This document shows positions 10,935-26,434 of a DNA stretch of 42,545 bases, one piece after another; the stretch's first letter is position 1, and every line of letters starts with the position of its first letter. Origin of the DNA: Gemmatimonadota bacterium (lineage in GTDB: Bacteria; Latescibacterota; UBA2968; UBA8231). A program made the translations under genes and the position numbers. The stretch is taken from contig PATE01000070.1 in assembly GCA_002712305.1 (NCBI GenBank), positions 3,880-46,424 on the forward strand, in the 5' to 3' direction. The notes under the pieces are model-generated. The model made no database searches. It was given only the letters and a program-made list of their open reading frames with translations, and was not told the origin of the DNA.

Positions 10935-13127
10935 ATGTCTGATCAGCCGATCCGATCCGACCCTGCCATCGCCCTTGTCGGTAACCCGAACACGGGCAAG
11001 ACCACTCTCTTCAACGCACTCACCGGACTGTCCCAGCGTGTAGGGAACTACCCGGGCGTGACCGTTCAGTATCAATCCGGCCACATGGATCTCGCCTCGG
11101 GTGATGCACAGATCATCGACCTGCCCGGCACCTATTCTTTGTCAGCCTCCTCGCCCGACGAAGCGATCGCCGTCGATGTCCTTCTCGGGCAGCAGGTGGG
11201 GGCAGATCCTATCGACGTTGTCGTCGTCATCGCTGATGCGAGCAATCTGCGCCGTCATCTGTATCTGCTTTCCCAGATTATAGAGACGGGGCACCGTGTC
11301 GTGCTCGCTCTCAACATGATGGATCTGGCCCGTGAACGTGGTGTTCACGTCGACATCGACGAGTTATCGGCTCGCCTGGGCATTCGCGTCGTCCCCCTCA
11401 CGTCACATCGCGGCGATGGCATCGACGAGTTGATCCGGGCCGTGGAGGAGACCTTGCAGGAGCCTCGGTCGGAAGACGCTTTTTCGTCTCCCGTGCCCGG
11501 GTCGCTGGTCGCGGCGGCTCATGATCTGTGTCAGGACGAGACCCACCCCGTCAACAGCCACGTGGAAGCTCTGCGCGTTCTCGTCGACGCGGGGGGCCAC
11601 CTCGAAGAGCGATTGGTCGAGCGCACCAACGGTGACATCACCCAGCGGCTTGTCGCCCTGCGCGAGAAGGCCGCCACGGGCCGCCCTCTTTCGGCGGTCG
11701 AGAGTGAAGCGCGGTACGCCTGGGTGGCCCAACTCGTCGATGGCACACTTCGAGGCGACGAACAGTTGCGACCACGTCGCTCGGATCGCATCGATCGACT
11801 GCTGACACATCGCGTGGCCGGATTGGCTGTCTTCCTGGCGATCAGCGCAATCACTTTTCAGGGGATCTTCTCGTGGTCCGCTCCCCTGATGGACGCCATC
11901 GATGGTCTTTTCGGTGATCTCGGTGTCGTCGTGGGGCGTTACATCAACGAGGGCCCTCTGCAGAGCCTCGTCGTCGATGGGGTGATCGCCGGCGTCGGAG
12001 GCGTACTCGTCTTTCTGCCTCAAATTGCCATCCTCTTCCTCATCATCTCTCTGCTTGAGGATTGTGGCTACATGGCCCGGGCGGCGATGATGATGGATCG
12101 CCTGCTGCGTTTCTGTGGGCTGTCGGGACGCTCCTTCATCCCCATGCTCTCGAGTTTTGCATGCGCCGTTCCCGGCATCCTGTCGGCGCGAGCCATTTCC
12201 GACCGACGCGACCGCTACGTCACGATTCTCGTGGCGCCCCTGATGAGTTGCTCTGCCCGTCTGCCCGTATACGTCTTGTTCATCGCCGCCTTCATTCCCG
12301 ATCGCCCCATGCTGGGCAGTTGGCTCGGACTGCAGGGGCTGACCCTGCTGGCCATGTATGGTGTGGGTGCCAGTGTGGCCATCCCCGTCGCACTGTTGCT
12401 GCGACGCACACTCCTTCAGGGTCAGTCGACGCCCTTCCTTATCGAGTTGCCCTCGTACAAGTGGCCTGTACCGAAGGTCGTCCTCATGCGCGTGTATCTG
12501 AACAGCCGGGAGTTCGTCGTGCGAGCGGGGAGCATTATCCTGGCGGCGACCATCGTCATGTGGGCCCTGGCGTATTATCCACACTCGGCAGAGATCGCCA
12601 CCGATTTCGACGGCAGGCGACAGGCGGCCGAAACACTGCCCGAGGCGACTCGCACGACAACCCTCGAAGCGATCGACCTGGCCGAGGCGACGGCCTACCT
12701 CGAAGCGTCTTATCTGGGTCGGGCGGGCCGCTTTCTCGAACCCGTCGTCGAGCCACTGGGTTGGGACTGGCGGCTCGGCATGGCGGCGCTGGCCTCCTTC
12801 CCCGCCCGTGAGCTGATCATCTCAACCTTGGGGACTATCTACAGCCTCGGCGCCGACGCGAATGAGACCTCCTCCGATCTGCGGTCGGCGCTACGCGCGT
12901 CTCCCGGGGCGGATGGAGAGCCTCTCGACACGCCCGTGGCCCTGTCGGTGATGGTGTTCTTCGCCTTGTGCGCCCAGTGTACGTCGACCCTTGCCGTGAT
13001 TCGACGAGAGATGGGATCCTGGGGATGGGTCGTCCTGTCCTTCGGCTACATGACGGCGCTGGCCTATGCGGGCGCCTTCATCGTCTACCAGGTGACCGAG
13101 TCTCTGGGATGGGGCGCGGTCGGATGA
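10935..13127 (+). CDS. feoB: FeoB, ferrous iron transporter with G domain
   Basis: 730 residues. The N-terminal G domain has G1 GNPNTGKT (residues 16-23), G3 DLPGTYSL (62-69), G4 NMMD (127-130) and a G5-like TSHRGDG, followed by the helical GDI-like region. The membrane half shows the two Gate domains, including EDCGYMARAAMMMDRLLRFCG, GRSFIPMLSSFACAVPGI and SCSARLPVYVLFIAAF. Also visible are the C-terminal FPARELIISTLGTIYS and ALCAQCTSTLAVIRREMGSW. FeoB moves Fe(II) across the inner membrane in a GTP-dependent way. Length and motif order are typical. It overlaps the next small gene by four bases (ATGA), a strong sign of coupled translation. Confidence 0.97.
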   Translation: MSDQPIRSDPAIALVGNPNTGKTTLFNALTGLSQRVGNYPGVTVQYQSGHMDLASGDAQIIDLPGTYSLSASSPDEAIAVDVLLGQQVGADPIDVVVVIADASNLRRHLYLLSQIIETGHRVVLALNMMDLARERGVHVDIDELSARLGIRVVPLTSHRGDGIDELIRAVEETLQEPRSEDAFSSPVPGSLVAAAHDLCQDETHPVNSHVEALRVLVDAGGHLEERLVERTNGDITQRLVALREKAATGRPLSAVESEARYAWVAQLVDGTLRGDEQLRPRRSDRIDRLLTHRVAGLAVFLAISAITFQGIFSWSAPLMDAIDGLFGDLGVVVGRYINEGPLQSLVVDGVIAGVGGVLVFLPQIAILFLIISLLEDCGYMARAAMMMDRLLRFCGLSGRSFIPMLSSFACAVPGILSARAISDRRDRYVTILVAPLMSCSARLPVYVLFIAAFIPDRPMLGSWLGLQGLTLLAMYGVGASVAIPVALLLRRTLLQGQSTPFLIELPSYKWPVPKVVLMRVYLNSREFVVRAGSIILAATIVMWALAYYPHSAEIATDFDGRRQAAETLPEATRTTTLEAIDLAEATAYLEASYLGRAGRFLEPVVEPLGWDWRLGMAALASFPARELIISTLGTIYSLGADANETSSDLRSALRASPGADGEPLDTPVALSVMVFFALCAQCTSTLAVIRREMGSWGWVVLSFGYMTALAYAGAFIVYQVTESLGWGAVG

Positions 13128-13351
13128 GTGAGGTGATGGAAATGCTCAGGATCGACGGATGGCAGAGCCTCGTCGTGTTCATCCTCGTCGCATGGAGTGT
13201 CCGACATCTGGTGCGGGCGTTTCGTCACCCGCTCGATAACGAGAACGGCTGCGGCACCTGTGCGACGAATGCCGTCGGCGGCGATCAACTCATTCAGATC
13301 GAGACGACGCCAGACAAGTCGACCGGCAAGTCGACCCACGCGTCGAGCTAA
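13124..13351 (+). CDS. small FeoB-associated Cys-containing membrane protein
   Basis: The start is the ATG overlapping the feoB stop (ATGA), giving 75 residues; a longer frame reaching back into feoB is only a shadow. One membrane helix (about residues 13-31, SLVVFILVAW within) is followed by a cytoplasmic or periplasmic tail with NGCGTCATN, Cys43 and Cys46 in a C-x-x-C pair. This is the layout of the small Cys-rich proteins found next to feoB in many bacteria, thought to play a FeoC-like role by binding iron or an Fe-S cluster. The last four bases overlap the convergent dprA gene. Confidence 0.75.
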   Translation: MSEVMEMLRIDGWQSLVVFILVAWSVRHLVRAFRHPLDNENGCGTCATNAVGGDQLIQIETTPDKSTGKSTHASS

Positions 13352-14484
13352 CCGGCACGTGCGTAGCGCTGCCCTGGTAGACGCACGACACGCCCAACCA
13401 ACTCGAGCCGCAACAGCGCTTCCTGCACATGCCCGACGGACTGCCCGACCTGACGGGCGAGACTCTCGACGCCGTGTTCACCACTTTGGAGTGCTTCGAG
13501 CAGCGGGTTGGCGTCATCGATGGACCGGGCTTGGGGCATCTCATCTCCCCAGGCGGTGGGCAAGTGCACCTTCAACTCGTCGATGACATCCTTCGCGCCG
13601 CGCGCCAGGCCGGCACCGTCTCGGAGCAGTGAAAGGCATCCCGCACAACGCGGGTTGGTAATCTCTCCAGGGACGGCGAACACCTCACGGCCCTGCTCGC
13701 GTGCCAACCGTGCCGTCATCAGGGCACCGCTGCGCTTAGGCGCTTCGATAACGATGACAGCCTGCGCCAATCCACTGACGATTCGATTTCGACGTGGGAA
13801 ACTGCTGCGTTCGGGAGGTGTTCCGAGGGGCGACTCCGCCAATAGCAGGCCATCGGCCTGGATCTGTCGGTACAGCTTGGCATGATCGCGTGGATAGATC
13901 ACGTCGACGCCACCGCCGAGAACGGCGATCGTGGCACCACCGGCGTGCAGAGCCCCCTCGTGAGCCGCCCCGTCGATCCCACGTGCCAGGCCACTGACGA
14001 TGGTCACTCCAGCGGTGGCCAGATCAGACCCCAGCTGGGTCGACACACGTTTGCCGTAGCTGGTGCATCGTCGCGAACCGACGATGGCCACTGCAGGAGG
14101 TTGCAGAAGTCGCCGATCTCCGAGAGCATACAGGCTCAGCGGTGCGTCCGCAGCTTCGGCCAACCAGGACGGGTAGTCTCGATCGCCCCAGACAACCAAG
14201 AACCCACCTCGATCTTCCAGACGTCGCAGTTGCTCGTGCGCCCAATGAAGGTTATCGCTTCGGTTGACCCTTTGCAGCGTGCTCTTGCCAAGCACGGCTT
14301 CCCAGTCGGTGTCGGGGGCCGAAAGCGCCGCTCGCGCTGAGCCGCAGTGATCCACGAGCATGCGACTCCGTTGAGGGCCAATCTTCGGCAGCCGCCCCAG
14401 GGCCAGCAGTGCGACCCGTTCCTCGGCCCTGGATGGGTCTTCGGGAGAATCTGGCCCGTGCTCAGCCGTGCGTTCCGTCATCAT
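13348..14484 (-). CDS. dprA: DprA, DNA-processing / transformation protein
   Basis: 378 residues with the DprA/Smf Rossmann core: VGSRRCTSYGKR, SGLARGIDGAAHEGAL, AVLGGGVDVIYPRDH, FPRRNRIVSGLA, SGALMTARLA and VFAVPGEI. A C-terminal winged-helix-like segment follows (ESLARQVGQSVGHVQEALLR-LEL). DprA protects incoming single-stranded DNA and loads RecA during natural transformation. The N-terminal part (LGRLPKIGPQRSRMLVDHCG) is the helix-hairpin-helix-like SAM-type region of the family. Its ATG overlaps the obgE stop by four bases. Placement in the same run as ComEA-like and PilM/PilN-like genes supports a competence role, although dprA is present in many non-competent bacteria. Confidence 0.95.
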   Translation of the reverse strand: MMTERTAEHGPDSPEDPSRAEERVALLALGRLPKIGPQRSRMLVDHCGSARAALSAPDTDWEAVLGKSTLQRVNRSDNLHWAHEQLRRLEDRGGFLVVWGDRDYPSWLAEAADAPLSLYALGDRRLLQPPAVAIVGSRRCTSYGKRVSTQLGSDLATAGVTIVSGLARGIDGAAHEGALHAGGATIAVLGGGVDVIYPRDHAKLYRQIQADGLLLAESPLGTPPERSSFPRRNRIVSGLAQAVIVIEAPKRSGALMTARLAREQGREVFAVPGEITNPRCAGCLSLLRDGAGLARGAKDVIDELKVHLPTAWGDEMPQARSIDDANPLLEALQSGEHGVESLARQVGQSVGHVQEALLRLELVGRVVRLPGQRYARAG

Positions 14485-15536
14485 CCGTCGCCCAGGACGG
14501 TGTCACCCTCGACCTCTTCATCACCGAACTCGCCGTCCAACGCGGTCTGCTCTCGCTGCATCGTCACCTGGCTGCCCAGCGCCTGCACCAGTTGGTCCAG
14601 ACCAAAGCCGGAAACGGCAGAAATGAGGAAGTGATGGAGGCCGAGATCTGCTAGAGGGTTGGTGAAAGACGCCGCGTCCTCGACGGTCAGCAGATCCGCC
14701 TTCGTAAAGGCGAGGGCAAGCGGCTTTTCCAGGAGGGCAGGATTGAAGCTGGCCAGTTCCGCCCGCAGCGCCTCGAATTGATCGGCCTGGTCGTCGCCCG
14801 TCGCGTCGAGGGCGAACAACAGGATGCGTGTTCGCTCGATGTGTTTGAGGAAACGAATTCCCAGCCCCTTGCCCTCGTGAGCCCCCTCGATCAGACCCGG
14901 GAGATCGGCGAGCACGAAACTGTCGAAGTCACCGAATCGGACGATGCCGAGATTGGGTTCCAACGTCGTGAAGGGGTAATCGGCAATCTTCGGATGGGCT
15001 GCCGAAACGCGCGACAGCAAGGTAGACTTGCCCGCATTGGGGAAACCCACCAGACCGATATCTGCCAGGAGTTTGAGTTCGAGATGGACGACGATGTCGC
15101 GCCCCGGTCGTCCGCGATCGGCGCGGCGTGGAGCCTGGTCCTGTGCGGTTGCGAAACGCGCGTTGCCCCGCCCTCCCCGGCCACCCTTCAACAGAATCAT
15201 CTGCTGGCCAGGAGTGAGCAGATCCGCCACCACCTGGCCGTCGGCATCCTTGACCAGCGTTCCCGGGGGAACTCGGATGACGGCATCGTCACCTCGTGCA
15301 CCGGTCAGTTTCTTGCCCTTGCCGTGGCCACCCCGTTCGGCAGCGATCTTGGGACGATACCGCAGATCCACGAGCGTCGACAGTTTGTCATCCGTGTAGA
15401 GGACGACATTCCCACCATCTCCCCCATCGCCGCCGTCGGGTCCGCCGCGCGGGACGTATTTCTCCCTGCGAAAGCTCATGCAGCCATCACCACCGGCCCC
15501 CGAGCTAAGCGTGAGATTGACTTCATCGATAAACAT
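14481..15536 (-). CDS. obgE: Obg/CgtA GTPase
   Basis: 351 residues. The N-terminal Obg fold has its glycine-rich repeats (GGPDGGDGGDGGNV, KGGRGGRGNARFA). The G domain follows with P-loop GFPNAGKS (164-171), switch region YPFTTLEPNLG, DLPGLIEGAH (211-220), FTKADLL (T/NKxD) and ISAVSGFG. Obg is an essential cytoplasmic GTPase that binds the 50S ribosomal subunit and links assembly to growth state. The short C-terminal tail is acidic (DGEFGDEEVEGDTVLGDG). The gene begins 14 bases after coaD and overlaps dprA by four bases. Confidence 0.97.
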   Translation of the reverse strand: MFIDEVNLTLSSGAGGDGCMSFRREKYVPRGGPDGGDGGDGGNVVLYTDDKLSTLVDLRYRPKIAAERGGHGKGKKLTGARGDDAVIRVPPGTLVKDADGQVVADLLTPGQQMILLKGGRGGRGNARFATAQDQAPRRADRGRPGRDIVVHLELKLLADIGLVGFPNAGKSTLLSRVSAAHPKIADYPFTTLEPNLGIVRFGDFDSFVLADLPGLIEGAHEGKGLGIRFLKHIERTRILLFALDATGDDQADQFEALRAELASFNPALLEKPLALAFTKADLLTVEDAASFTNPLADLGLHHFLISAVSGFGLDQLVQALGSQVTMQREQTALDGEFGDEEVEGDTVLGDG

Positions 15537-15550
15537 GGATGATCACCAGA

Positions 15551-16027
15551 TCAGCTGAACTTCCTGCGCAACCGTTCGTCGACATGGGCCGGCACGAATT
15601 TGGAGACGTCGCCGCCGTATTCGGCGATCTGCTTCACCGTGGAGGAGCGCAGATACATGTATTCCGCACTCGTCATCAGATAGACCGTGTCAAACTCCTC
15701 CCACATGCTTCGATTCGTCAGCGCCATCGAGAATTCGGCATCGAAGTCGGTCACAGCCCGCAGACCACGCACGGCGTGATGGATGTTGTGCTTGCGAGCA
15801 TAGTCAACGAGCAGTCCACCCGTCTGATCGATCGTCACCTGCGGCCAGGCGGAGGTCGCCTCACGGATCATCTCGATATTTTCCTCGGCGCCGAACAGGG
15901 ACTGTTTTCCGGGGTTGGTCGCCAGCAGCACCACGAGGGAATCAAACATGTCGACGGCTCGCTCGATGATGTTCACATGTCCGAGCGTGATGGGATCGAA
16001 ACTTCCCGGATACACGGCGGTCTTCAT
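15551..16027 (-). CDS. coaD: phosphopantetheine adenylyltransferase
   Basis: 158 residues, the standard CoaD length. The nucleotidyltransferase signature GSFDPITLGH is at residues 8-17 (T/HxGH-type), with RGLRAVTDFDAEF and the ISSxxVK-like MYLRSSTVKQIA. It transfers AMP from ATP to 4'-phosphopantetheine, the penultimate step of coenzyme A synthesis, in the cytoplasm. The start overlaps the PilN-like stop by four bases, so this housekeeping gene is translated from the same message as the pilus-like genes. Confidence 0.97.
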   Translation of the reverse strand: MKTAVYPGSFDPITLGHVNIIERAVDMFDSLVVLLATNPGKQSLFGAEENIEMIREATSAWPQVTIDQTGGLLVDYARKHNIHHAVRGLRAVTDFDAEFSMALTNRSMWEEFDTVYLMTSAEYMYLRSSTVKQIAEYGGDVSKFVPAHVDERLRRKFS

Positions 16028-16995
16028 CTGCTCGGCTCCTTCCCGAGGAGGACGTCGATGGAGGCGGTCACCCGCAGGAGGCCTCCTTCGATCGATTCAG
16101 TGCTGAAAGATGTCAGACGTACCTGAGATTCGCTGGCCAGGGCCATGCCGAACGCCGCAACCTGCGAACGGTCGCCCACAGCCGAGAGCCCCTGCTCTAC
16201 ACGCGTGTTTCCCGGTGACCAGGTCTCATGGGTGGGGCGCAAGGTCGACAGGCGCAGCAGACCTGCCGTGCGTGCGTGATCCTGCGCCAGGTGCACCAGC
16301 GCGTCCACGTGCATGGATGCCCGCTGCGGTGGTGTTCGTGGCGCATCGGAGCCAGCAAAGCCTTGAATGGCGAAAGATGGCGTGCTCGCACTCGTGCCGG
16401 CCCGCCAGAACGTGAGGGTTGGTTGCAGGCCAAGGTCGTGTAGCATGCCCACACTCTGACGCAACCCATCATGCTGGTTCGACAAACTGGTGCCTTCGAG
16501 CCGGAATGTGCCATCGGCGTGACTCACGTGCCGTGTGACCGTTGTGCCGCGTGGTAGACGTCGGCTCATCCGCTGAGCCGTCTGCCACCAGGTCACCGGT
16601 GTCGAGGCGGCGGATTCTGCAGGGGACTGCGCAACGACGGTGGCTGTGGCAACCGCTGGCCGGGTGACTCGCGGTTGGGAGCGCCCTTGAGAAACGGGAG
16701 CTGATTCGATGGCCACCGTCATGGGCAGTGGCGCATCAGCGCTCTGTGTCACAGAGGCGGACCTATCGCCAGCTTCTGCATTGCCGTGGCCGGCTTCCGC
16801 AGCCACAGTGGAGGCCGAATCCTGGAGGATCGAGCCGGTGTACTGGCGCACGGCGTCGAAGTTCAGCACGTGCAGCAGACCCACCTGTCGATCGATCCCA
16901 TACAAGGCGGCGACGATGGCAATCACGCCCGCAGCGGCCAGATACATCGGCAGGCGCCGACGATCGTTCTCGAGTTCGATACGGATCATCGCCAT
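16024..16995 (-). CDS. PilN-like membrane protein (type IV pilus / secretion assembly)
   Basis: 323 residues. There is a short cytoplasmic N-terminus MAMIRIELENDRRRLP, one membrane helix (about 17-36), and then a long periplasmic part rich in Ala, Ser and Thr. The start resembles the PilN pattern MIRINLLP and would be Met3 if so. The C-terminal half has an alpha/beta flavour (GTFRLEGTSLSNQHDGLRQS) as in the PilN/PilO ferredoxin-like fold. Direct similarity is weak. The call rests mainly on topology and on the adjacent PilM-like gene (two-base gap). PilN/PilM form the inner-membrane alignment complex. The missing PilO, PilP and PilQ suggest a reduced or divergent system. Confidence 0.6.
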   Translation of the reverse strand: MAMIRIELENDRRRLPMYLAAAGVIAIVAALYGIDRQVGLLHVLNFDAVRQYTGSILQDSASTVAAEAGHGNAEAGDRSASVTQSADAPLPMTVAIESAPVSQGRSQPRVTRPAVATATVVAQSPAESAASTPVTWWQTAQRMSRRLPRGTTVTRHVSHADGTFRLEGTSLSNQHDGLRQSVGMLHDLGLQPTLTFWRAGTSASTPSFAIQGFAGSDAPRTPPQRASMHVDALVHLAQDHARTAGLLRLSTLRPTHETWSPGNTRVEQGLSAVGDRSQVAAFGMALASESQVRLTSFSTESIEGGLLRVTASIDVLLGKEPSR

Positions 16996-16997
16996 CG

Positions 16998-17924
16998 TCA
17001 GACGTCTGCCAGTCCGCGGAAAGCCAGGCCTGCAGCCACTGCCAGTGCCGCCCCACCACCTGGCATCGCTTCGAGGGCCTCATCGGCACTCGTTCGGCGG
17101 CGCAGTTGGGCGAACGGATCCAGCGGCGTGATCGAGCGCCCAAGGCCCGCCAGATGTTCGCCCGCATCCAGAGCCTGTACACTGGCAAGCCAGACGCGGT
17201 CTGCTGCTTCTGTGCCCTGACCTGTATCCAGCAGTCCTTCGACGTAGCTGCGCAGCAGATCGATTCGGGCCGCGCTGACGGCAGTCCCCTCGTCCTCCCA
17301 GTCCCAGACCGCTTCCGCCTCAAACTCGCCATCGCGCATGAGCACGACGCGCCCCTGGGCCGCTTCGAGTTGCACGAGCAGATCACTGCCCTCGTCTCGT
17401 GCGGCGCCTCCACCTTCGAGGGCGTTGACCAGCGCAAAGGGAATCATGTCGAAACCGGGTTTGCCGATCTTCGCCTGGCGGCAGAGTACACCGTAAAGCT
17501 CCAGTACCTCTCGACGAGCGGCCACGACGAAGCCGTATCGACTTGTCTGCAGCACGTCCAGCACAAAGTCGTCGTAGTCGTCTTCCAACGACTGGCGCGC
17601 CTCCCACATCAGTTGCTCTCGCGTTTCCGTCCTGCTGTTGGGAATCAGGAAACGCCGCTTCACGAAGGAGGAAGTCCCACCGAGACCGAAATACGGTCGC
17701 TGACACTCCACGCCCGCCACGGCCAGTTGGCGCAGCGCGGCGGCCAGTGCGGCGCGGTCGACATCCTCCGCAAGTCGCTCGGGCAGCTGATAGGGATCGG
17801 GAAGATCCACACGCGCGCAGGCCGACAGAGAGATGGTCTTGCGTCGCCGTGACATCTGGACCGCGTAGACGGCATCATCGGTGATATGAACACCGGTGCA
17901 GTATTTGGAGCCAGAACCAAACAC
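16998..17924 (-). CDS. PilM-like actin-fold protein
   Basis: 308 residues with a PilM/GspL-like order. An N-terminal strand pattern VHITDDAVYAVQMSRR comes first, then GGTSSFVKRRFLIPNSRTE (the 'v..R.i.iP' region) and EQLMWEARQSLEDDYDDF. These are followed by FVVAARREVLELYGVLCRQA, GFDMIPFALVNALEG and the C-terminal ALAVAAGLAFRGLADV (the 'a.GLAlRg' ending of PilM). The actin-type phosphate loops are eroded (the phosphate-2 region lacks a clear DxG), so ATP binding is doubtful. It is predicted to be a cytoplasmic partner of the PilN-like protein that follows it. The pair could serve a type IV pilus, DNA uptake or secretion device. Confidence 0.7.
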   Translation of the reverse strand: MFGSGSKYCTGVHITDDAVYAVQMSRRRKTISLSACARVDLPDPYQLPERLAEDVDRAALAAALRQLAVAGVECQRPYFGLGGTSSFVKRRFLIPNSRTETREQLMWEARQSLEDDYDDFVLDVLQTSRYGFVVAARREVLELYGVLCRQAKIGKPGFDMIPFALVNALEGGGAARDEGSDLLVQLEAAQGRVVLMRDGEFEAEAVWDWEDEGTAVSAARIDLLRSYVEGLLDTGQGTEAADRVWLASVQALDAGEHLAGLGRSITPLDPFAQLRRRTSADEALEAMPGGGAALAVAAGLAFRGLADV

Positions 17925-17962
17925 GTCGCGTCAGAGGCCAGGGTGAAGGGTGATGGACATCA

Positions 17963-18385
17963 TCAGTCCAGGCGCAGGTGTGGGCGCAATCGCTCAAGCG
18001 TGCGAACACCGATTCCGCGTACCTGCGTGAGCTCATCGATGTGCGCAAATCGACCATGTTGCTGCCGGTAGGTGACGATCGCCGCTGCCGTGTGTGGTCC
18101 GATACCGGGCAGTGTCTCCCATTGAACAAGCTCGGCCGAGTTGATGCCGATCGTCGTAGACACCGACGCGCCTCCTCCACCGACTTCGAGATCACTCTGC
18201 GCAGGTGGTACGGCCGCTGCGACCTCGACGTGCGGAGGATCGACGGCCTTCCGAATCACATGGAAGTCTTCCAGTCCGTCCTGCGTCCACGACTCGACCA
18301 CGAGTACCAGGCAACCGAGGAACAGAGTCGACGTCAGAAACAGCACGGCGACCTGCTCCTGCTTCGTCAGCACCAGCCAGTTCAT
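17963..18385 (-). CDS. ComEA-like helix-hairpin-helix protein
   Basis: I chose the ATG at 18385 (MNWLVL...), giving 140 residues. The longer frame from 18652 overlaps the sprA 3' end by nearly 200 bases on the same strand and its extra sequence looks random. One membrane anchor (about 12-31, VAVLFLTSTLFLGCLVLVV) leads to a low-complexity linker. A double helix-hairpin-helix domain follows at about 80-138: GINSAELVQWETLPGIGPHT, AAAIVTYRQQHGRFAHIDEL, VRGIGVRTLERLRPHL. This is the ComEA fold, which binds incoming double-stranded DNA in the periplasm during transformation. It starts 71 bases after sprA and is followed 38 bases later by the PilM-like gene. Confidence 0.85.
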   Translation of the reverse strand: MNWLVLTKQEQVAVLFLTSTLFLGCLVLVVESWTQDGLEDFHVIRKAVDPPHVEVAAAVPPAQSDLEVGGGGASVSTTIGINSAELVQWETLPGIGPHTAAAIVTYRQQHGRFAHIDELTQVRGIGVRTLERLRPHLRLD

Positions 18386-18455
18386 GGCTTTGTCTATCGG
18401 GAAGATACCGCGCCGCCAAGGGCACGTGCAATGAGAACCGGGCGCACAGTCGGCA

Positions 18456-21400
18456 TCAGCGGAAGAACAACGTCCCTGACATACGCAACTCGCGGACCTT
18501 GCGAGTGCGATCGGAGATGTTGTTGCGATCGTTTTCGTAGCGGACGATGCCATCACCACGGAAGTTCTCGCTGAAGGTGTAGGTCGCCCGCAACTCTGCT
18601 TTGACGCGGTCCGTAGATGAAATGGGCACAGGCTGCTCCGAGCCGGTCCCACTCTGTCTGATCTCCGATTCGAAGGAGACTTCGAATCTCAGATCGACAT
18701 TACTCTTGAGTTTGCCGAACAGAGGCAGTGTTCGAGGTCGCAGTTTGTAACGAACATCGAAGGTCGTCTTGTTTCGCTGCAGTTCCCCACTTCCACGCAG
18801 CGGCGGTAGCCCTCTCACGACGCCATTGGAGTCCTCCTCGGCCAACTCGTAGTCGAGATCCTCACTCGTGGACCGGTTGACCTCGAAACGTGTCGTGGGG
18901 CCCACTCGCCACTGACCTGTCCACGAGGCACGCCATTCGGTCGATTCCGATTGAGTGATCAAGTTGCGTGGCTGTAGATCTCGTTCGCCTTGATCGTTGG
19001 CCGACTGATCGAAGCGGATATTGACCTGTGCGCTGTTGAGAAACCGCTTCATATAGGGAATACGATCCGCACGTCCCCAGTTGACCGTGATCGACGGGAA
19101 CTGTTGCCGGCGTTCAACCCGGAGTCGGTTTTGTGTGCTGCCGGAGCGCTCCGATTGCGTCTCCTTGAGGCTACTCTTAACGCTGAATCCCATCGGCAGC
19201 CGCAGCCCCGTCGACATATCCGTGTCGGTGCTTCGGCTGCGTGTGTCCTGCTGTGTCAGGCCAGAGCCTTGCTGACCGATCTGAAGGGAATCCTCGATAC
19301 CGATCTGGAAGAGGAATGGCGGGCGCGCCACCAGATTGAAGCTGTTTGCGTCGGTGCTGCGCCGCCACGTCGTATTGAAGGGTTCGATGTAGCTGCTTAG
19401 GAAATAGAGGAATCTGCGCGCCACAAAGGGCTGCGAGACCTCCGGCTCCTCGATCGGATCGGGCGCGACGACCGCCTCGGCACTGTCGATCTCTGCCGCA
19501 CGGCGACGTGGACGCGCACGCGGGCGTCCCGCCCGACTTCGGTCGGCTGGGGCGCCGAGGAATTTCAGCAACTGTGGGAGTCGAACATTCACGCGCGCCG
19601 TCACCGTATTCTTCGTGATGATGTCGATCGTGCGAATCGGAATGCCCGTGATCGAATCGAGCACGGCCGATGTTCGACGACTGCGCGGATCGCCACTCTC
19701 CTGATAGTTGGCCGAAAACGTAAAGGAAGGATCGAGCCAGGTGATGACGCGCGGATTCACCTTCAAATCCACTTTCTGATTTCGTGAAACCTCCCGGCCG
19801 AAGCTGAGGCGCGAGGGCTCGAAATTCCTGCGTAGATCACGATTGACTTGGAGATTGTAGTCGCCCGAGAGTGAGCGGATCGGGCTGTATTTGCTTACAT
19901 ACGTCTCCTTCATATCGAACAGCTCGTTGAAGGTCGTGTCGCGCTGCGATGCTCTCCAGTTCTCGCTCTCCTGGCGATTGGCACTCATGGTGTAGCTCAT
20001 CAGCGTCGGCAACGGACTCAACTCAGATTTTCGCAGACGCTCCGGGATGAACTCCGGAAGCCACCTGAGATAGTCGACCTTCGGCTTCGGAATGGGCAGC
20101 TTGTAGCTGAAGTTCATGGTCTGCGAGTCACGGTCATCGACGGGTGTAACCGGAGACATGTTCCGTTCTCGCGTCTGCGACATCCGCAGATTCATCTGAT
20201 CGAAAGTCCAGTGAGAGAACCAATGGGTTCCACCTCGCTTGCTGATTGAAAACTCAAAGAATTCCTTGCGGCGTTCAGTGCGCAGCGAGTCCTTCTCGTC
20301 GGCTTGCAGTTCGACGTCGGAATTCGGACCAAAGCGAGGTAGCGACAGGTCGCGATTGAAGGAAGCCTTGATGGGAATGGAGAATCCCCAGCTTCCAGGC
20401 AGGAACTTGTGAACGTTCGTCGTCGTCGACACCGTCGTACGAAGATCGCCGCTCTTTCGTTCCGTGTTGTCGATGGTGCGAAAGTTCTGACTTCGCCAGT
20501 CGACGAGCGCGTCCAAATCCATGAAGTCGGCGAACTTCGTGTTGATTCGAGCAAAGGCCGCGATCCCGGCATCGTTGCGGGCATCATCCAGGCGCATTTC
20601 GTCGACGTAGACCTGTCCCGTGAATCGTCGGGCATCGGCGAGATTCCGAAGTCCCAGATTCAGCTGACGGATCTGCTGCAGCGATGGATTGCCCCGCACT
20701 CGGTAGATAGCCGGGGCGCCGTCACGACGGCCTGGCCGGGTGATCACCGTGTCCAGCTGGTTGAGGACCACTCCGAGACTGTCGAATCTCCCCGCCCGCA
20801 GTTCCGCTTTGAGCAGCGACATCTCCTCGAGTTCGATATCCACTTCGTTGCGCTCGTCCCAACCCACGAAGACCGGTGTGGCGAATTCGTAGTAGTTGAG
20901 CGAATCAACCCCGAAGCGAACGAAGAACTCCAGATCGCTCGAATCGATCCCGGTCACGTAGGTCGCATTCGAATCCCCATGCACGAACATCCGTAGGCGC
21001 GTGTACTTCGTGTAGTCGGCACTGCGTGACAGAACTTTGGTCGCTGACACCTGATGCTCCACGTCGAGATTCTCCACGTCGAGCACCAGGGATTGCTCAC
21101 GCTCGCGTACACGTGAGTTGGTCAGACGCCGCACTCTCACACCGGGTGGCTGTCGGTAGCTCTGATTCTCGTCGGTGCCGATGACGGTGACATTGATGGC
21201 CTCGTCCTCGGAGATGACTCCTGCATTCTCGAGAGCGACAATCTCATCTTCCTGCCACTCGTTGCCGATGATTTCGATCTGGGCGATCTGCACCATGATC
21301 GAATCACCTGCCGCGCGATCGGTGACCAACGCCAAACGGGCGAATTCGATGCGACTGGAGTCCGGTGTTCCTACACGCTCGATGTCCTCCGTGTAAAGAG

Positions 21401-24400
21401 GAACGCGGAAAAGGCGCCACTGATCACATTCGCCGGCTATCTCTGCAGCACTACACGTACCCGGCTCGTGATCATCGCTGGCCAGATCGATGGAATAGTG
21501 GTAGTAGTCGTTTCGTGTGTTGAGATTGCCGTCGTTGTTGAGATCCTCCGAGTCCGGTCGCAGCCCCCCTTCACCACCTCTGAGATTGCCCTGCGTTCCA
21601 TTGATTCGGCGGTAGTCGTCGCGGTTGCGTGTGGGATCGTAGTTCCAGTTGTCCCCCTCTGGGTCACTGGGTTCGCGGTCAGGCACCAAGGTCCTGAACT
21701 GACTCACCATCGCCTCTTCTGACTGCGTTGTGTCACCTCCGGCTTCGGCGAGATAGAACTTCAGTTCCTCTTTGTCGTCGCGGCCATCGATCCCCACGTC
21801 CTCACTGTCGGAAACCTGACCATCGCCTGTAGCACGCCCCGGCAGCGGTTTGTCCTCGGTATCGATGCGGTTGTTGAGGATCACGTCCTCGCTGAGATCT
21901 CCCAGATCCAGATGCAGCTCTCCCTCGACGCCTCGCACCCAGAGATCCAGAAACTTGGACTGGGAGAAATCTCTCACGCCACCGGTGAACACGGTCATGA
22001 CACCGCCCCACGTTTCGATCTCTTCTCCCGCGTGAACCTCCAGGGTGAGCACATCCGTCCGATTGTTCGCCGCCTCGACCTGGTCTTGCTGGCTGGGCCA
22101 GATCTCGGTGCGCAGAAACCGATCGTACGGATTGTACCAGCGCAGAAGACCCCGGTTGTCGGCATCAAAGCGCAGATCTTCAGGTAGACTGGAAGGCGTC
22201 CATCGACTTCGGAAGATCGACAGAATCTCCGGTCGCTCCGAGCCCTCGAAGTCGTCGATGTATCCCTCCCCCTTGGTATTGAGATTCGGACGACTCTGGG
22301 CGATCTCCGCCTGAACGGAGACATTCGACTCCGCCGCCGTCTTGAGCATGGGCAAGGCATCCACGAAACGCGTCAACAAGGGGGCTTCGAATCGTGCGCG
22401 CAGGTCGAGATCCCACACGATCGTGCGCGCAGGTTCCGACCCCACTCTGACTCGATTCTCAGGTGAGCGGACATTGTTGTAGATCAGCGTGCCGCCGATC
22501 GTGCCGTCACCTTGCCAGAATTCGTACTCACTACGCATGCCGAGCAGCGTCTTCTGCTGGCTGCCCAGACCGATCAGATCCTGGCTCTCGAAGGTGATCT
22601 CCAGGTCGGCCCCGGGATCGGCCACGGCATTGGCCGTTTCACCGACAAAGGTGACCTCACCGGTGAAGGTGACATTGAAGTCGGTGCCGCGCTGCAGCCG
22701 TTTGCCATTGAGTCGCACATCCACCGACTCGATGTCGATCCCGGCCAGACGTCCTTGTGTGAGGCTGATTCGCTGCTGTGCCGATGCATTGATAACCTGC
22801 AGGATGTATCGACTGGCCTCGATCTGATCTCGCTGCTGCTGCTTGTCGTAGATCTCCGGCACGCGGGTAGACACCGCGTATTTGTCTCCCACGGGATCGA
22901 AGGGTCGTTGGTCGGGGAAGATGAGGACGCCACGCGAACCGTCGAGGCCGACATAGTCGGCATCGATGATCTGATCCGGGCGTGTGCCGGCATCCTGTCC
23001 GTGTTTGTCGAGGCCCATCAACTGCAGGAAGGAGCGGCCCCCCTCCGTATTCTCCGGTTCATCACCGGGAATCTCGTGAAGGATTTCAACACGGATCTTG
23101 TCTTCGTCGAACAGTCGGCCCCGGGAAAAGCCACGCACGATGCGATAGACGTTCTTCCACTCCAGGTTCCATGTAGGGAATTCAGTTCGCGCATCGCGCG
23201 CCTTAAGCAGGCGCAGCTTGAGCGAATCCGGCTGGGCTGGTGTAAATCCGACACCGTCACCGGCGACGGTCCGATAGGCGACGGCCAGGGCATGTCGATC
23301 CTGCACGGGAACCCGCAGCACGATATAGCCGAGGGCCGAAACCATGGAGTAGTCATTGTCGGGGTCGAGGCGGTGCCACGTACCAACCTCGGTGTAGCCT
23401 GTGCGCGGATCATCCGGATTGCTGAGATCCGCGAAGGCTCGCCCCGGACGCGCCAATTGCTCGGGATCGTTGCTGACGTTGAAGTCGTTGATGTAAACCT
23501 GTAGGGACGTCTCGTCGATCGCGGCCGTCGGATCGAAATCCTCGGGGATGCCGGTATTGAGAACAGCAAAGTCCGTGAGTTGATCGCGATACACGTCGTC
23601 GAGGAAGAAGTACTGATTGCGCACATACTGGTAGTCACGGATTTCGACCGTGTCGATCTGCGCACCACCGCGGAAGCTCTGCCGGTTGCTCTCGCTCTCT
23701 TCGTGAGATGCGATGGTGGTAAAGGCGAAGGGGCCGATGTGGCCCTTGGCGCGGATTCCGAACAGCCCCTTGTGCTGCTGATTGAAGCCGACGAAGCGAG
23801 TACTGGGCAGCGACAGGGTCGTATTTCCCGCCTGCACTTCCTGGAAGATGTCGTCTTCGCTGCCCCGGTAGTCGAGTTTGATCTGATTCGTCAGCTGATC
23901 GGTGAGACTTTGCCCAAAGGCGGAACCGAGACTCTCCGTGTCCTGGGTGATGCGGATATTGATGGCCTCTCCCACACTGCCCTCGACCGAGAATTTGGAC
24001 TCCTGGTCCATACCCAGCGTGGGAAACTTCGATGGGCGCCCCGCCAGAGTTTGCACTTCTCCCGCCGTCCACTGGCTCTTTCCACCCAGAGAAGCGGTGT
24101 GCGACCCATTGATTCGCAACGACCCCTCTTCGCCGATCAGCCGGCGGATCGGCGCAGGGGCGGGAAAGGGCACGCGCCATTCCAGGCGATTCCGGCCACG
24201 ACCACCCCGTCCACCCTGTCCACCCAGATTCCGCCTGTGACGCTTGCGGATCAGATCTCGCCAGTTGGTCTGATACACGTGCTCCTGAGCAAGGTCGAGA
24301 TAGCTGTCCACACTGATCGTTACCGGAGCGCCCGCATCGAAACCGGCTGTTCGCGGTGTGTAGTGGACGCCAAGGGAATCCACCGTGACCTGTCGCATTT

Positions 24401-24647
24401 TGAAAGGCGCCTGACTCTCCACCAACGCTTTGCGGGGCGGGCGCTGGCGAATCATGGGATGACCGGGTCGGAAGGCGGAATACTCGCGCGGCTCTGCGAA
24501 CAACTCACCCATCACGCCAGGCAGGGCTGTGGGCTTCAGCCCGATCTGCGCCGTGCTCGGTCCAACGCCCAACACGAGCAGCACCAGGACGATAGGCCCT
24601 AGTGCCAGACGGGGAGCGGGTTGATTCAGACTCAAAGGTGCGCGCAT
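18456..24647 (-). CDS. sprA: SprA-type giant outer-membrane protein (Type 9 secretion translocon)
   Basis: 2063 residues with a signal peptide (LALGPIVLVLLVLGVG...TAQ, about 1-34). Recognisable SprA landmarks appear in order: VEGSVGEAINIRITQDTESL, DYRGSEDDIFQEVQAGNTTL, GLFGIRAKGHIGPFAFTTIA, GEGYIDDFEGSERPEIL and VYVDEMRLDDARNDAG. A very long run of alternating strands forms the barrel, ending in MSGTLFFR. In Bacteroidota, SprA/Sov forms the 36-strand outer-membrane pore of the Type 9 secretion system and is needed for gliding and export of CTD-tagged proteins. Some strands are rich in Arg/Asp, and an insert PRARPRRRAAEIDSAEA (near residues 1710-1725) is unusual. No other T9SS gene (PorK-N, PorV, PorT) lies in the window. 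It diverges from lptF. Confidence 0.88.
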   Translation of the reverse strand: MRAPLSLNQPAPRLALGPIVLVLLVLGVGPSTAQIGLKPTALPGVMGELFAEPREYSAFRPGHPMIRQRPPRKALVESQAPFKMRQVTVDSLGVHYTPRTAGFDAGAPVTISVDSYLDLAQEHVYQTNWRDLIRKRHRRNLGGQGGRGGRGRNRLEWRVPFPAPAPIRRLIGEEGSLRINGSHTASLGGKSQWTAGEVQTLAGRPSKFPTLGMDQESKFSVEGSVGEAINIRITQDTESLGSAFGQSLTDQLTNQIKLDYRGSEDDIFQEVQAGNTTLSLPSTRFVGFNQQHKGLFGIRAKGHIGPFAFTTIASHEESESNRQSFRGGAQIDTVEIRDYQYVRNQYFFLDDVYRDQLTDFAVLNTGIPEDFDPTAAIDETSLQVYINDFNVSNDPEQLARPGRAFADLSNPDDPRTGYTEVGTWHRLDPDNDYSMVSALGYIVLRVPVQDRHALAVAYRTVAGDGVGFTPAQPDSLKLRLLKARDARTEFPTWNLEWKNVYRIVRGFSRGRLFDEDKIRVEILHEIPGDEPENTEGGRSFLQLMGLDKHGQDAGTRPDQIIDADYVGLDGSRGVLIFPDQRPFDPVGDKYAVSTRVPEIYDKQQQRDQIEASRYILQVINASAQQRISLTQGRLAGIDIESVDVRLNGKRLQRGTDFNVTFTGEVTFVGETANAVADPGADLEITFESQDLIGLGSQQKTLLGMRSEYEFWQGDGTIGGTLIYNNVRSPENRVRVGSEPARTIVWDLDLRARFEAPLLTRFVDALPMLKTAAESNVSVQAEIAQSRPNLNTKGEGYIDDFEGSERPEILSIFRSRWTPSSLPEDLRFDADNRGLLRWYNPYDRFLRTEIWPSQQDQVEAANNRTDVLTLEVHAGEEIETWGGVMTVFTGGVRDFSQSKFLDLWVRGVEGELHLDLGDLSEDVILNNRIDTEDKPLPGRATGDGQVSDSEDVGIDGRDDKEELKFYLAEAGGDTTQSEEAMVSQFRTLVPDREPSDPEGDNWNYDPTRNRDDYRRINGTQGNLRGGEGGLRPDSEDLNNDGNLNTRNDYYHYSIDLASDDHEPGTCSAAEIAGECDQWRLFRVPLYTEDIERVGTPDSSRIEFARLALVTDRAAGDSIMVQIAQIEIIGNEWQEDEIVALENAGVISEDEAINVTVIGTDENQSYRQPPGVRVRRLTNSRVREREQSLVLDVENLDVEHQVSATKVLSRSADYTKYTRLRMFVHGDSNATYVTGIDSSDLEFFVRFGVDSLNYYEFATPVFVGWDERNEVDIELEEMSLLKAELRAGRFDSLGVVLNQLDTVITRPGRRDGAPAIYRVRGNPSLQQIRQLNLGLRNLADARRFTGQVYVDEMRLDDARNDAGIAAFARINTKFADFMDLDALVDWRSQNFRTIDNTERKSGDLRTTVSTTTNVHKFLPGSWGFSIPIKASFNRDLSLPRFGPNSDVELQADEKDSLRTERRKEFFEFSISKRGGTHWFSHWTFDQMNLRMSQTRERNMSPVTPVDDRDSQTMNFSYKLPIPKPKVDYLRWLPEFIPERLRKSELSPLPTLMSYTMSANRQESENWRASQRDTTFNELFDMKETYVSKYSPIRSLSGDYNLQVNRDLRRNFEPSRLSFGREVSRNQKVDLKVNPRVITWLDPSFTFSANYQESGDPRSRRTSAVLDSITGIPIRTIDIITKNTVTARVNVRLPQLLKFLGAPADRSRAGRPRARPRRRAAEIDSAEAVVAPDPIEEPEVSQPFVARRFLYFLSSYIEPFNTTWRRSTDANSFNLVARPPFLFQIGIEDSLQIGQQGSGLTQQDTRSRSTDTDMSTGLRLPMGFSVKSSLKETQSERSGSTQNRLRVERRQQFPSITVNWGRADRIPYMKRFLNSAQVNIRFDQSANDQGERDLQPRNLITQSESTEWRASWTGQWRVGPTTRFEVNRSTSEDLDYELAEEDSNGVVRGLPPLRGSGELQRNKTTFDVRYKLRPRTLPLFGKLKSNVDLRFEVSFESEIRQSGTGSEQPVPISSTDRVKAELRATYTFSENFRGDGIVRYENDRNNISDRTRKVRELRMSGTLFFR

Positions 24648-25123
24648 GGACGGGCCCCACTCGCGACAACAGCCGTGCGGCTGCCGCGGGCAGGTGCGAT
24701 CAGGTTTGGATGTCGATTTCAGGGGCCGCTCGACACGACCCCCACGGCCAAAGCCGTTGCCTCAACTACAGAAGATCACTGACCGCTCGCACTGCGCGAT
24801 AGGCTGGCTCTACGAAAGGGGTGCTCGGGGGGAGTTTCGGCATGTGAAGGGGCTGCCGAAGGCTCCGCAAAGTTACTCCTGTCGGGAGATTCCAGCAATG
24901 CAGTCGAGCGACGACGCTGCAAGAATCGTTCCCACTCGGTCTCCAACTCACAGCCCGGTTCAAGGCTCGGTGGTATATTGGACCGACCTGATGAGGATTC
25001 GCCGGAAACTGCCTGTGGATCCCAACTCCAGTTTGAGTCGTCTTGGTAACATGGGTGCCACCATCCGGTGCCACCTGCATTCTCGGCGACGACCTCTTCT
25101 ATCAAGGACACCGCAACCGGCTC
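24648..25123. other. divergent non-coding region between sprA and lptF
   Basis: About 475 bases with reading frames on both strands that lack family resemblance, Shine-Dalgarno support or consistent composition. A TATATT hexamer at 24974-24979 on the plus strand is a possible -10 for lptF, but no convincing -35 was found. I see no RNA gene or long repeat. Confidence 0.5.
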
Positions 25124-26434
25124 GTGGTTTCCCTCAGCATCTACATGTTGCGCCAGCATCTGCTGCCCTTCCTGCTTGGCTTGTCGTTGATCGTGTTCGT
25201 GCTGGTGATCGATGTGGTCCTGCAGATGCTTGACCAGGTGCTGAGCAAGGGACTCAGTGCAGCCCTCGCCGTGGACCTGTTCATCTACAATCTCGCCTGG
25301 ATCATCGCTCTCGCCGTGCCCATGGCGGTGCTCGTGTCGGTGTTGATGGCCTACGGGCGCCTCGCGGCGGACAATGAGATTCTCGCCCTCAAGGCGAGTG
25401 GGATTTCCTTCTCGCGCCTCCTGATTCCGACGCTGCTGGCTGCCACCGTGCTGGCCCTGATGATGGTCGCCTTCAATGACCAAGTCCTTCCCGACTTCAA
25501 CCACAAGGCGCGCAACCTCGCCGTGAGCCTGCGCCGCGCCAAGGCGGCTCTCGTCCTGAAGCAGAAAGAAGGTGTCTTCATCCGGGATCTGGGACCGTAT
25601 TCGTTGCTGGTGCGGCGCGTGGACGAGGAAGCCAACGAGTTGCACGATCTCACCCTGTACGACACGGGACACCCCGGTCCACCCACGACACTGCGCGCAG
25701 CTCGAGGCAAGGTGGAAATCTTCGATGAGGGGGGCTATGTGCGCCTCATGCTGCACGACGGCGAGGTCCACGAGATCGATGCCAACGACCCTTCGCGATT
25801 CACGCGCAGCACCTTCTCGCGCCAGCTCGTTCACATCCGGGATTCGAAACGCGATCTGTCTCCGAACTATCGGTCCAGCTACCGCTCCGACCGTGAAATG
25901 GACGTGCGTGCCATGCGCGTCGCCGTGGAGGGCTTGCACGAACAGAATCAGCAGTCGCGGACTCAACTCGACTCGATTGCGGTTGCGTTCCTCGAGCAGG
26001 TCCAGCAAGCTGGCCCCGAACAGGTCGGCCTGCAGTCCGAATCACGGCAGATTACACGTCGTCTCGAAAAACAGTGGCGACTCTTCGACTCTCGTGAGCG
26101 ACGCGCCAACGCCTACCTGGTAGAGATCCACAAGAAGTTCTCTATCGCCGTCGCCTGCATTGTGTTTGTCCTCGTCGGCGCCCCCCTGGGCGCGCTCGTG
26201 CGGGCCAGGGGCGCCGCCGTCTCCGTGACACTGAGTCTCGTGTTCTTCTTCGCCTACTGGATGTTCCTCATCGGTGGTGAGGAACTTGCCGACCGTGGCT
26301 TCATTCCGCCCTGGACGGCCATGTGGGCCCCGAATGCCGTTTTCGGCTTCGTCGGAATCCTGTTGCTGCGCGCCGTCGCCCTCGACCGCGGCTTTCTGGC
26401 CACCCTCCTCAGTTGGCGTCGAAACCCGCAATGA
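25124..26434 (+). CDS. lptF: LptF/LptG-family lipopolysaccharide export permease
   Basis: I placed the start at the GTG at 25124, so that SIYMLRQHLLPFLLG aligns with the usual N-terminal 'DRYILRRFLGPFL' of the family; AAGGA lies 15 bases before it. An ATG at 25043 would add 27 residues of doubtful value. The protein (about 436 residues) has three N-terminal and three C-terminal membrane helices flanking a periplasmic beta-jellyroll (about 145-245). It also has the conserved LADNEILALKASGIS region after helix 2. A long helical insert (VEGLHEQNQQSRTQLDSIAV) precedes the last helices. LptF/LptG with LptB2 extract LPS from the inner membrane. Its stop overlaps the next start (ATGA). F versus G is assigned only by order. 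Confidence 0.88.
   Translation: MVSLSIYMLRQHLLPFLLGLSLIVFVLVIDVVLQMLDQVLSKGLSAALAVDLFIYNLAWIIALAVPMAVLVSVLMAYGRLAADNEILALKASGISFSRLLIPTLLAATVLALMMVAFNDQVLPDFNHKARNLAVSLRRAKAALVLKQKEGVFIRDLGPYSLLVRRVDEEANELHDLTLYDTGHPGPPTTLRAARGKVEIFDEGGYVRLMLHDGEVHEIDANDPSRFTRSTFSRQLVHIRDSKRDLSPNYRSSYRSDREMDVRAMRVAVEGLHEQNQQSRTQLDSIAVAFLEQVQQAGPEQVGLQSESRQITRRLEKQWRLFDSRERRANAYLVEIHKKFSIAVACIVFVLVGAPLGALVRARGAAVSVTLSLVFFFAYWMFLIGGEELADRGFIPPWTAMWAPNAVFGFVGILLLRAVALDRGFLATLLSWRRNPQ

Follow-up and report, generated by a model that had tools for sequence, protein, structure and literature searches.

A seven-gene run on the minus strand

The window analysed here is a whole stretch of 42,545 nucleotides (contig PATE01000070.1) from a Latescibacterota metagenome-assembled genome (MAG; 4.77 Mb, 146 contigs, 90.9% complete). 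At 13348-24647 on its minus strand, seven open and co-directional genes place SprA, the outer-membrane translocon of the type IX secretion system (T9SS), beside a ComEA-like protein, relatives of the pilus proteins PilM, PilN and PilO, the housekeeping genes coaD and obgE, and dprA. This locus is real, widely conserved and unlike a conventional pilus locus, with a reduced pilus platform and ComEA together in genomes most of which have no pilus motor. Its genes are as follows.

18456..24647, minus strand: sprA, T9SS outer-membrane translocon SprA/Sov, 2063 amino acids (TIGR04189, E 7.9e-197, 657 bits against an equivalog cut-off of 200)
17963..18385, minus strand: comEA-like, 140 amino acids (HHH_3, E 4.6e-17; TIGR00426, 54.7 bits, above the cut-off of 53.1)
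16998..17924, minus strand: pilM-like, 308 amino acids, cytoplasmic actin-fold protein (profile, AlphaFold model and Foldseek)
16024..16995, minus strand: pilNO, 323 amino acids, best read as a single-chain PilN-PilO fusion (fold and motif)
15551..16027, minus strand: coaD, pantetheine-phosphate adenylyltransferase, housekeeping (TIGR01510, 191 bits, above cut-off)
14481..15536, minus strand: obgE, Obg GTPase, housekeeping (TIGR02729, 419 bits, above cut-off)
13348..14484, minus strand: dprA, DNA-processing protein DprA with a winged-helix domain (TIGR00732, 256 bits, above cut-off; PF02481, PF17782)

The gaps between these genes, from sprA to dprA, are 70, 38, 2, -4, 14 and -4 nucleotides, the two negative values being four-nucleotide ATGA overlaps (pilNO/coaD and obgE/dprA), so the compact run described in the first-pass annotation is borne out. 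The comEA-like open reading frame (ORF) had been listed from 18652, where it overlaps sprA, and reading of the sequence corrected its start to the ATG at 18385. A scan for terminator-like sites on the minus strand from sprA to dprA found none, using a weak method that yields fewer sites than shuffled sequences; the run may be carried on a single transcript. The gene names given at first pass also stand, except that the protein called PilN-like is better read as a fusion of PilN and PilO.

SprA is present in 63 of the 64 genomes of our phylum set, all 64 of which encode the PorV family (10 copies in the window's genome) and the T9SS C-terminal-domain cargo signal (41 copies). Because the same genomes carry both T9SS cargo and PorV, SprA is best read as an ordinary T9SS translocon that exports T9SS cargo and keeps its normal job here. 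These three components are shared with the T9SS of Bacteroidota; the Latescibacterota differ from it in having ComEA and PilM genes beside sprA, and GldM went undetected in a search in which no control matched. That search gave 0 of 64 phylum genomes and 0 of 16 others (Ignavibacteria, Bacteroidetes, KSB1, Calditrichota, Zixibacteria, Marinimicrobia and unplaced genomes), and with zero matches everywhere, positive controls included, it is uninformative; GldM was no longer used to mark the T9SS motor, and its absence is not claimable. A literature search for Latescibacterota with T9SS or competence returned nothing useful.

The ComEA-like protein has a short cytoplasmic tail, one membrane helix (a hydrophobic N-terminus, read from sequence) and a C-terminal helix-hairpin-helix (HHH) pair. 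This architecture suggests a putative periplasmic DNA receptor, with predicted roles in DNA binding and uptake.

Fold and motif of the PilM-like and PilN-like proteins

Against TIGR01175 the PilM-like protein scores 23 bits and does not reach the curated cut-off of 133, hence its designation. A profile built from ten relatives matches Myxococcus PilM (3jc8, E 1.2e-22) and Thermus PilM (2ych, E 6.7e-16), and a Foldseek search with the AlphaFold model (predicted local distance difference test score (pLDDT) 87.5, predicted template modelling score (pTM) 0.89) returned PilM structures as all ten best Protein Data Bank (PDB) matches (template modelling (TM) scores 0.68-0.76), followed by FtsA and the cytoplasmic domains of GspL. 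The signature WEA.Q.L is largely retained. We are confident in assigning the PilM fold. In the profile alignment, the query lacks some 50-60 residues of known PilMs around positions 207-208, which suggests that nucleotide binding may be altered. Further down the Foldseek results, at rank 25, lies the actin-like fold of Bacteroides BT_3980 (3hrg; TM score 0.50-0.58), which we take to be a DUF3822 protein. The DUF3822 family PF12864, which did match in a Bacteroides control, occurs in 0 of the 16 non-Latescibacterota SprA genomes searched (FCB group, for Fibrobacteres-Chlorobi-Bacteroidetes), and the link that this fold had suggested was dropped for those phyla.

The neighbouring protein consists of an N-terminal tail, one transmembrane helix, a long linker, a GspL/PilN-type domain (134-214) and a PilO-type domain (225-319). 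Structural comparison with VIA-align matched the last of these to PilO (2rjz, Z 9.3, root-mean-square deviation 2.3, 94 residues aligned; 3jc8_Oa, Z 9.1) and the preceding domain to the periplasmic domain of XcpY/GspL (5n7l, Z 6.3, root-mean-square deviation 2.2, 76 aligned). The PilO match stands well clear of the lower-ranked structures, the GspL/PilN match only modestly so. An alignment of homologues gives N-termini of the form MIR[IV]xL in family f1 and M[ML]K[IL]NL in family f7 (families f1-f10 follow our tool's own numbering), a type of tail that we take, from known PilM:PilN structures, to be the PilM-docking tail of PilN. PF05137 (PilN) matches 3 of 11 homologues, a Pfam scan of the window's own protein gave no match, and a PDB sequence search with the PilN-O profile returned only chance matches (mL43) plus PilO at E 0.72. 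The assignment relies on fold and motif, which best fit a fusion of PilN and PilO in one chain; such a fusion would also serve as a simplified model for the alignment platform of pili.

Gene order and pilus parts across the phylum

The first-pass annotation raised the question of whether this gene order recurs across the phylum, and it does. In 45 of 48 evaluable Latescibacterota loci the gene directly downstream of SprA is ComEA (46 if L079 of f1 is counted, where ComEA is present beside SprA within an oversized ORF), and this order is found in eight of nine evaluable families (f1, f3, f4, f5, f6, f7, f8 and f9, not f10). PilM comes next in most genomes of the window's class, and the further members of the run are kept at lower frequency (evaluable loci: PilM 37/43, PilN-O 24/43, CoaD 34/43, DprA 21/31). 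Because it recurs across the phylum, the gene order is far beyond chance. Conservation inside the window's own family was discounted, as FeoAB, LptF and LptG are equally conserved there. These are the flanking genes: dprA is convergent with feoB (which ends at 13127), and sprA is divergent from lptF/lptG, the first of which was used as a gene-order control.

25043..26434, plus strand: LptF-type permease, divergent from sprA (named from sequence reading alone)

Of 33 evaluable loci, 27 have a divergent LptF next to SprA, and f10, where ComEA is unlinked, is among the families concerned. As a gene expected to be functionally independent of ComEA is about equally linked to SprA, this part of the chromosome is generally stable, and a conserved order by itself does little to support a shared machine. 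The SprA-ComEA link also occurs outside the phylum, in Zixibacteria (L090, L112, L139) and in two MAGs whose phylum is uncertain (L101, L111); none was seen in the Marinimicrobia, KSB1, Ignavibacteria or Bacteroidetes loci, and the majority of non-Latescibacterota SprA loci have no ComEA nearby.

The composition of the run varies around this core. SprA and ComEA are separated by an M28 peptidase of glutaminyl-cyclase type in f7 and in some Zixibacteria loci, where RsmD also precedes CoaD. A protein with an NYN domain replaces PilN-O/CoaD between PilM and ObgE in several f4 genomes. ObgE is absent from the run in genus g3 of f1 (L067, L069, L102), where DprA comes directly after CoaD and the rest is kept.

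L068:8447-9349 (f7), L090:7454-8356 and L139:10771-11685 (Zixibacteria): M28 peptidase directly downstream of sprA
L096:17119-17877: NYN-domain protein (PF01936), with equivalents in L118 and L133

The pilus-related parts have been lost to different extents in different lineages. Locus L195 (f9) has the order SprA-ComEA-[short pilin-like]-PilM-PilN-RsmD, and its PilN tail is MIKINLL, of the canonical INLL type; in L045-L047, also of f9, the pilin-like gene alone is left between ComEA and RsmD. The Zixibacteria locus L112 reads ComEA-[pilin-like, GspG E 1.5e-5]-PilM (PF11104, 98 bits)-RsmD-CoaD. In f3 and f4 PilM is kept and PilN-O is not detectable anywhere in the genomes, including the closed genomes G038 and G039. 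In the Calditrichota locus L115, a single protein of 495 amino acids directly follows ComEA, with a weak PilM-like region, a transmembrane helix and a PilN-like periplasmic part, and these parts adjoin ComEA away from SprA; a Pfam scan of the protein was silent.

L195:4108-4455 and L083:15912-16259 (f9) and L112:5446-5799 (Zixibacteria): short pilin-like proteins without a prepilin cleavage motif, located between ComEA and PilM/RsmD (weak GspG-like E-values)
L115:12676-14163: GspL-like one-chain protein, between dnaJ-comEA and rsmD-ksgA-recO-dprA

The L115 protein matches the one-chain layout of GspL. More generally, the actin-like cytoplasmic and ferredoxin-like periplasmic parts found here resemble GspL/GspM of type II secretion, but the neighbour is ComEA and there is no GspE/GspF in the window's genome or most relatives.

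This piecemeal loss points to descent by reduction from a pilus-type apparatus for uptake and speaks against a machine whose parts depend strictly on one another. The shared envelope machine suggested at first pass is not upheld: PorV and cargo are present, LptF is linked about as stably, and PilM/PilN-O are lost while SprA and ComEA stay together. The same pattern bears on whether PilM/PilN-O could be an inner-membrane part of the T9SS that replaces the GldL/GldM motor in this phylum. Their operon with SprA would fit such a role, as would a GldM count of 0/64 in genomes that have SprA, PorV and cargo, but GldM matched no positive control, here or in the 16 other genomes. PilN-O has moreover been lost from families that retain SprA, PorV and cargo, and in Calditrichota L115 the PilM/PilN-like parts sit beside ComEA and away from SprA; we judge this role highly unlikely.

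The losses could also mean that the run is ordinary housekeeping linkage with no joint function, in which PilM/PilN-O are decaying pilus relics on their way out. The presence of coaD, rsmD and obgE among the neighbours, the shortened PilM and the separate disappearance of PilM, PilN-O and the pilin-like gene in individual lineages are all consistent with this. Drift alone, however, would erase WEA.Q.L and the PilN-type tail, which are kept, and the frames are open over some 40 genomes of many genera, with ComEA nearly always retained across the phylum loci. We consider this explanation possible but doubtful.

Pilus inventory and the case for DNA uptake

Components of a pilus motor are sparse in the phylum. 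A T2SSE-type (PilB/GspE) ATPase is found above cut-off in 20 of 64 genomes and T2SSF (PilC/GspF) in 12 of 64; neither is found above cut-off in the window's genome, its genus or the closed relatives G038, G039, G050 and G051. PF00437 matches of ~20 bits in the window's genome and relatives are sub-threshold and look like general P-loop matches, and were set aside. A PilQ/GspD secretin occurs in 26 of 60 phylum genomes, the sister species included; none was found in the window's 91%-complete genome, and it is also missing in many relatives, closed ones included. ComEC is encoded in 49 of 64 genomes and in 16 of 19 good ones, and that of the sister species has all three domains (DUF4131, channel and metallo-beta-lactamase). 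Thus, of the parts that the first-pass annotation proposed to look for elsewhere in the genome, the window's genome yielded PorV and T9SS cargo, and neither PilQ nor ComEC. The refuting outcome named at first pass, a complete conventional set elsewhere together with an unconserved gene order, did not come about: the order recurs, and motor, platform protein and secretin are missing from this genome.

Several f1 genomes without T2SSE/T2SSF encode a lone protein of ~800 amino acids with a central secretin domain, beside a putative lipoprotein of ~145 amino acids. No recognisable T2SS genes lie next to it, and the lone secretin itself was not found in the window's genome.

L182:7249-9708 (same-genus genome G059), L036:484-2892 and L032:616-3012: lone secretin

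With this inventory, the comparison with the type IVa pilus PilM-PilN-PilO(-PilP) of Myxococcus, Pseudomonas and Thermus can be drawn: the PilM actin fold, the PilN-like tail and the PilN- and PilO-type periplasmic domains are alike, whereas here PilN and PilO are fused with one transmembrane helix, PilM is shorter, and PilB/PilC and the secretin are not found in the genome.

The first-pass annotation had proposed, as a speculation, that SprA, rather than PilQ, is the outer-membrane passage for DNA; PilM/PilN-O would then form a trans-envelope link to it, as PilMNOP does to PilQ. The conserved SprA-ComEA adjacency, the retention of ComEA and ComEC, and the lack of a secretin in the window's genome and many relatives, closed ones included, make the proposal understandable, and the outer-membrane step of Bacteroidota competence is itself unexplained (PMC11532111). 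Against it, LptF is about equally linked to SprA; the adjacency persists where PilN-O (f3/f4) or PilM (some families) is missing; ComEA is not near most non-Latescibacterota SprA genes; and a lone secretin exists within the same genus. In a Riemerella genome that we take to be ~2.1 Mb, a gene of ~7 kb such as sprA would be expected to receive about ten insertions among 3000 transposon mutants. A screen of that size in Riemerella, which bears a T9SS, identified 16 transformation genes and no T9SS gene (PMC8459023), and two papers describe T9SS deletion mutants of the species as viable (PMC5742166, PMC6549377). With about ten insertions expected and such mutants viable, a strict requirement for SprA ought to have come to light, in that phylum. 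According to a further paper, the outer side of the SprA barrel is closed and the barrel has Plug or PorV as a partner (PMC10202324). We give SprA as the port very little credence.

DNA uptake that is free of a pilus has precedent. Porphyromonas gingivalis can no longer be transformed once comEA or comEC has been deleted (PMC11532111), and transformation of Riemerella anatipestifer requires an HHH protein, ComEC, DprA and ComF, with no pilus homologues found (PMC8459023). ComEA/HHH and ComEC thus serve pilus-free competence in both, and DprA in Riemerella; the Latescibacterota locus differs in that no PilM/PilN-O is reported in those organisms and comEA is not reported there in a run with sprA.

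The reading that we favour, and consider somewhat probable, is that the run encodes a reduced and motor-less descendant of the base of a DNA-uptake pilus, next to an ordinary T9SS translocon. Double-stranded DNA would reach the periplasm by some route and be captured there by ComEA; ComEC, encoded elsewhere in most relatives and not found in this MAG, would pass a single strand inward, where DprA would protect it. PilM would dock on the cytoplasmic tail of the one-chain PilN-PilO, and at the inner membrane the two would make up what survives of a pilus alignment platform. The process would involve neither a pilus motor nor a pilus platform protein, and the motor-less PilM/PilN-O scaffold may hold ComEA/ComEC in place or form a connection to the envelope. 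The place of SprA in the run would reflect ancient gene order and not a shared pore. Given the recurrent gene order and the lack of pilus motor, platform and, in this genome, secretin, the divergent competence system envisaged at first pass is a fair reading in its pilus-poor form, shorn of SprA as its DNA passage.

Several points weigh against this reading. The PilN-O model has a mean pLDDT of 62, with a poorly predicted linker and two well-predicted C-terminal domains. The loss of PilN-O in f3/f4, where PilM is kept, implies that the complete platform is dispensable, and it may be a vestige in decay. The lone secretin of some same-family genomes could be a conventional outer-membrane port, and ComEC was not found in the window's 91%-complete MAG. 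Function in any Latescibacterota is, finally, a prediction from the genes.

For Bacteroidota, the way in which pilus-less Gram-negative bacteria take DNA across the outer membrane has yet to be explained (PMC11532111, PMC8459023). A phylum that keeps ComEA, ComEC and a stripped PilM/PilN-PilO without a pilus motor offers a genetic starting point for that question, one that bears on which uptake parts are needed and on whether pilus relics work without a pilus.

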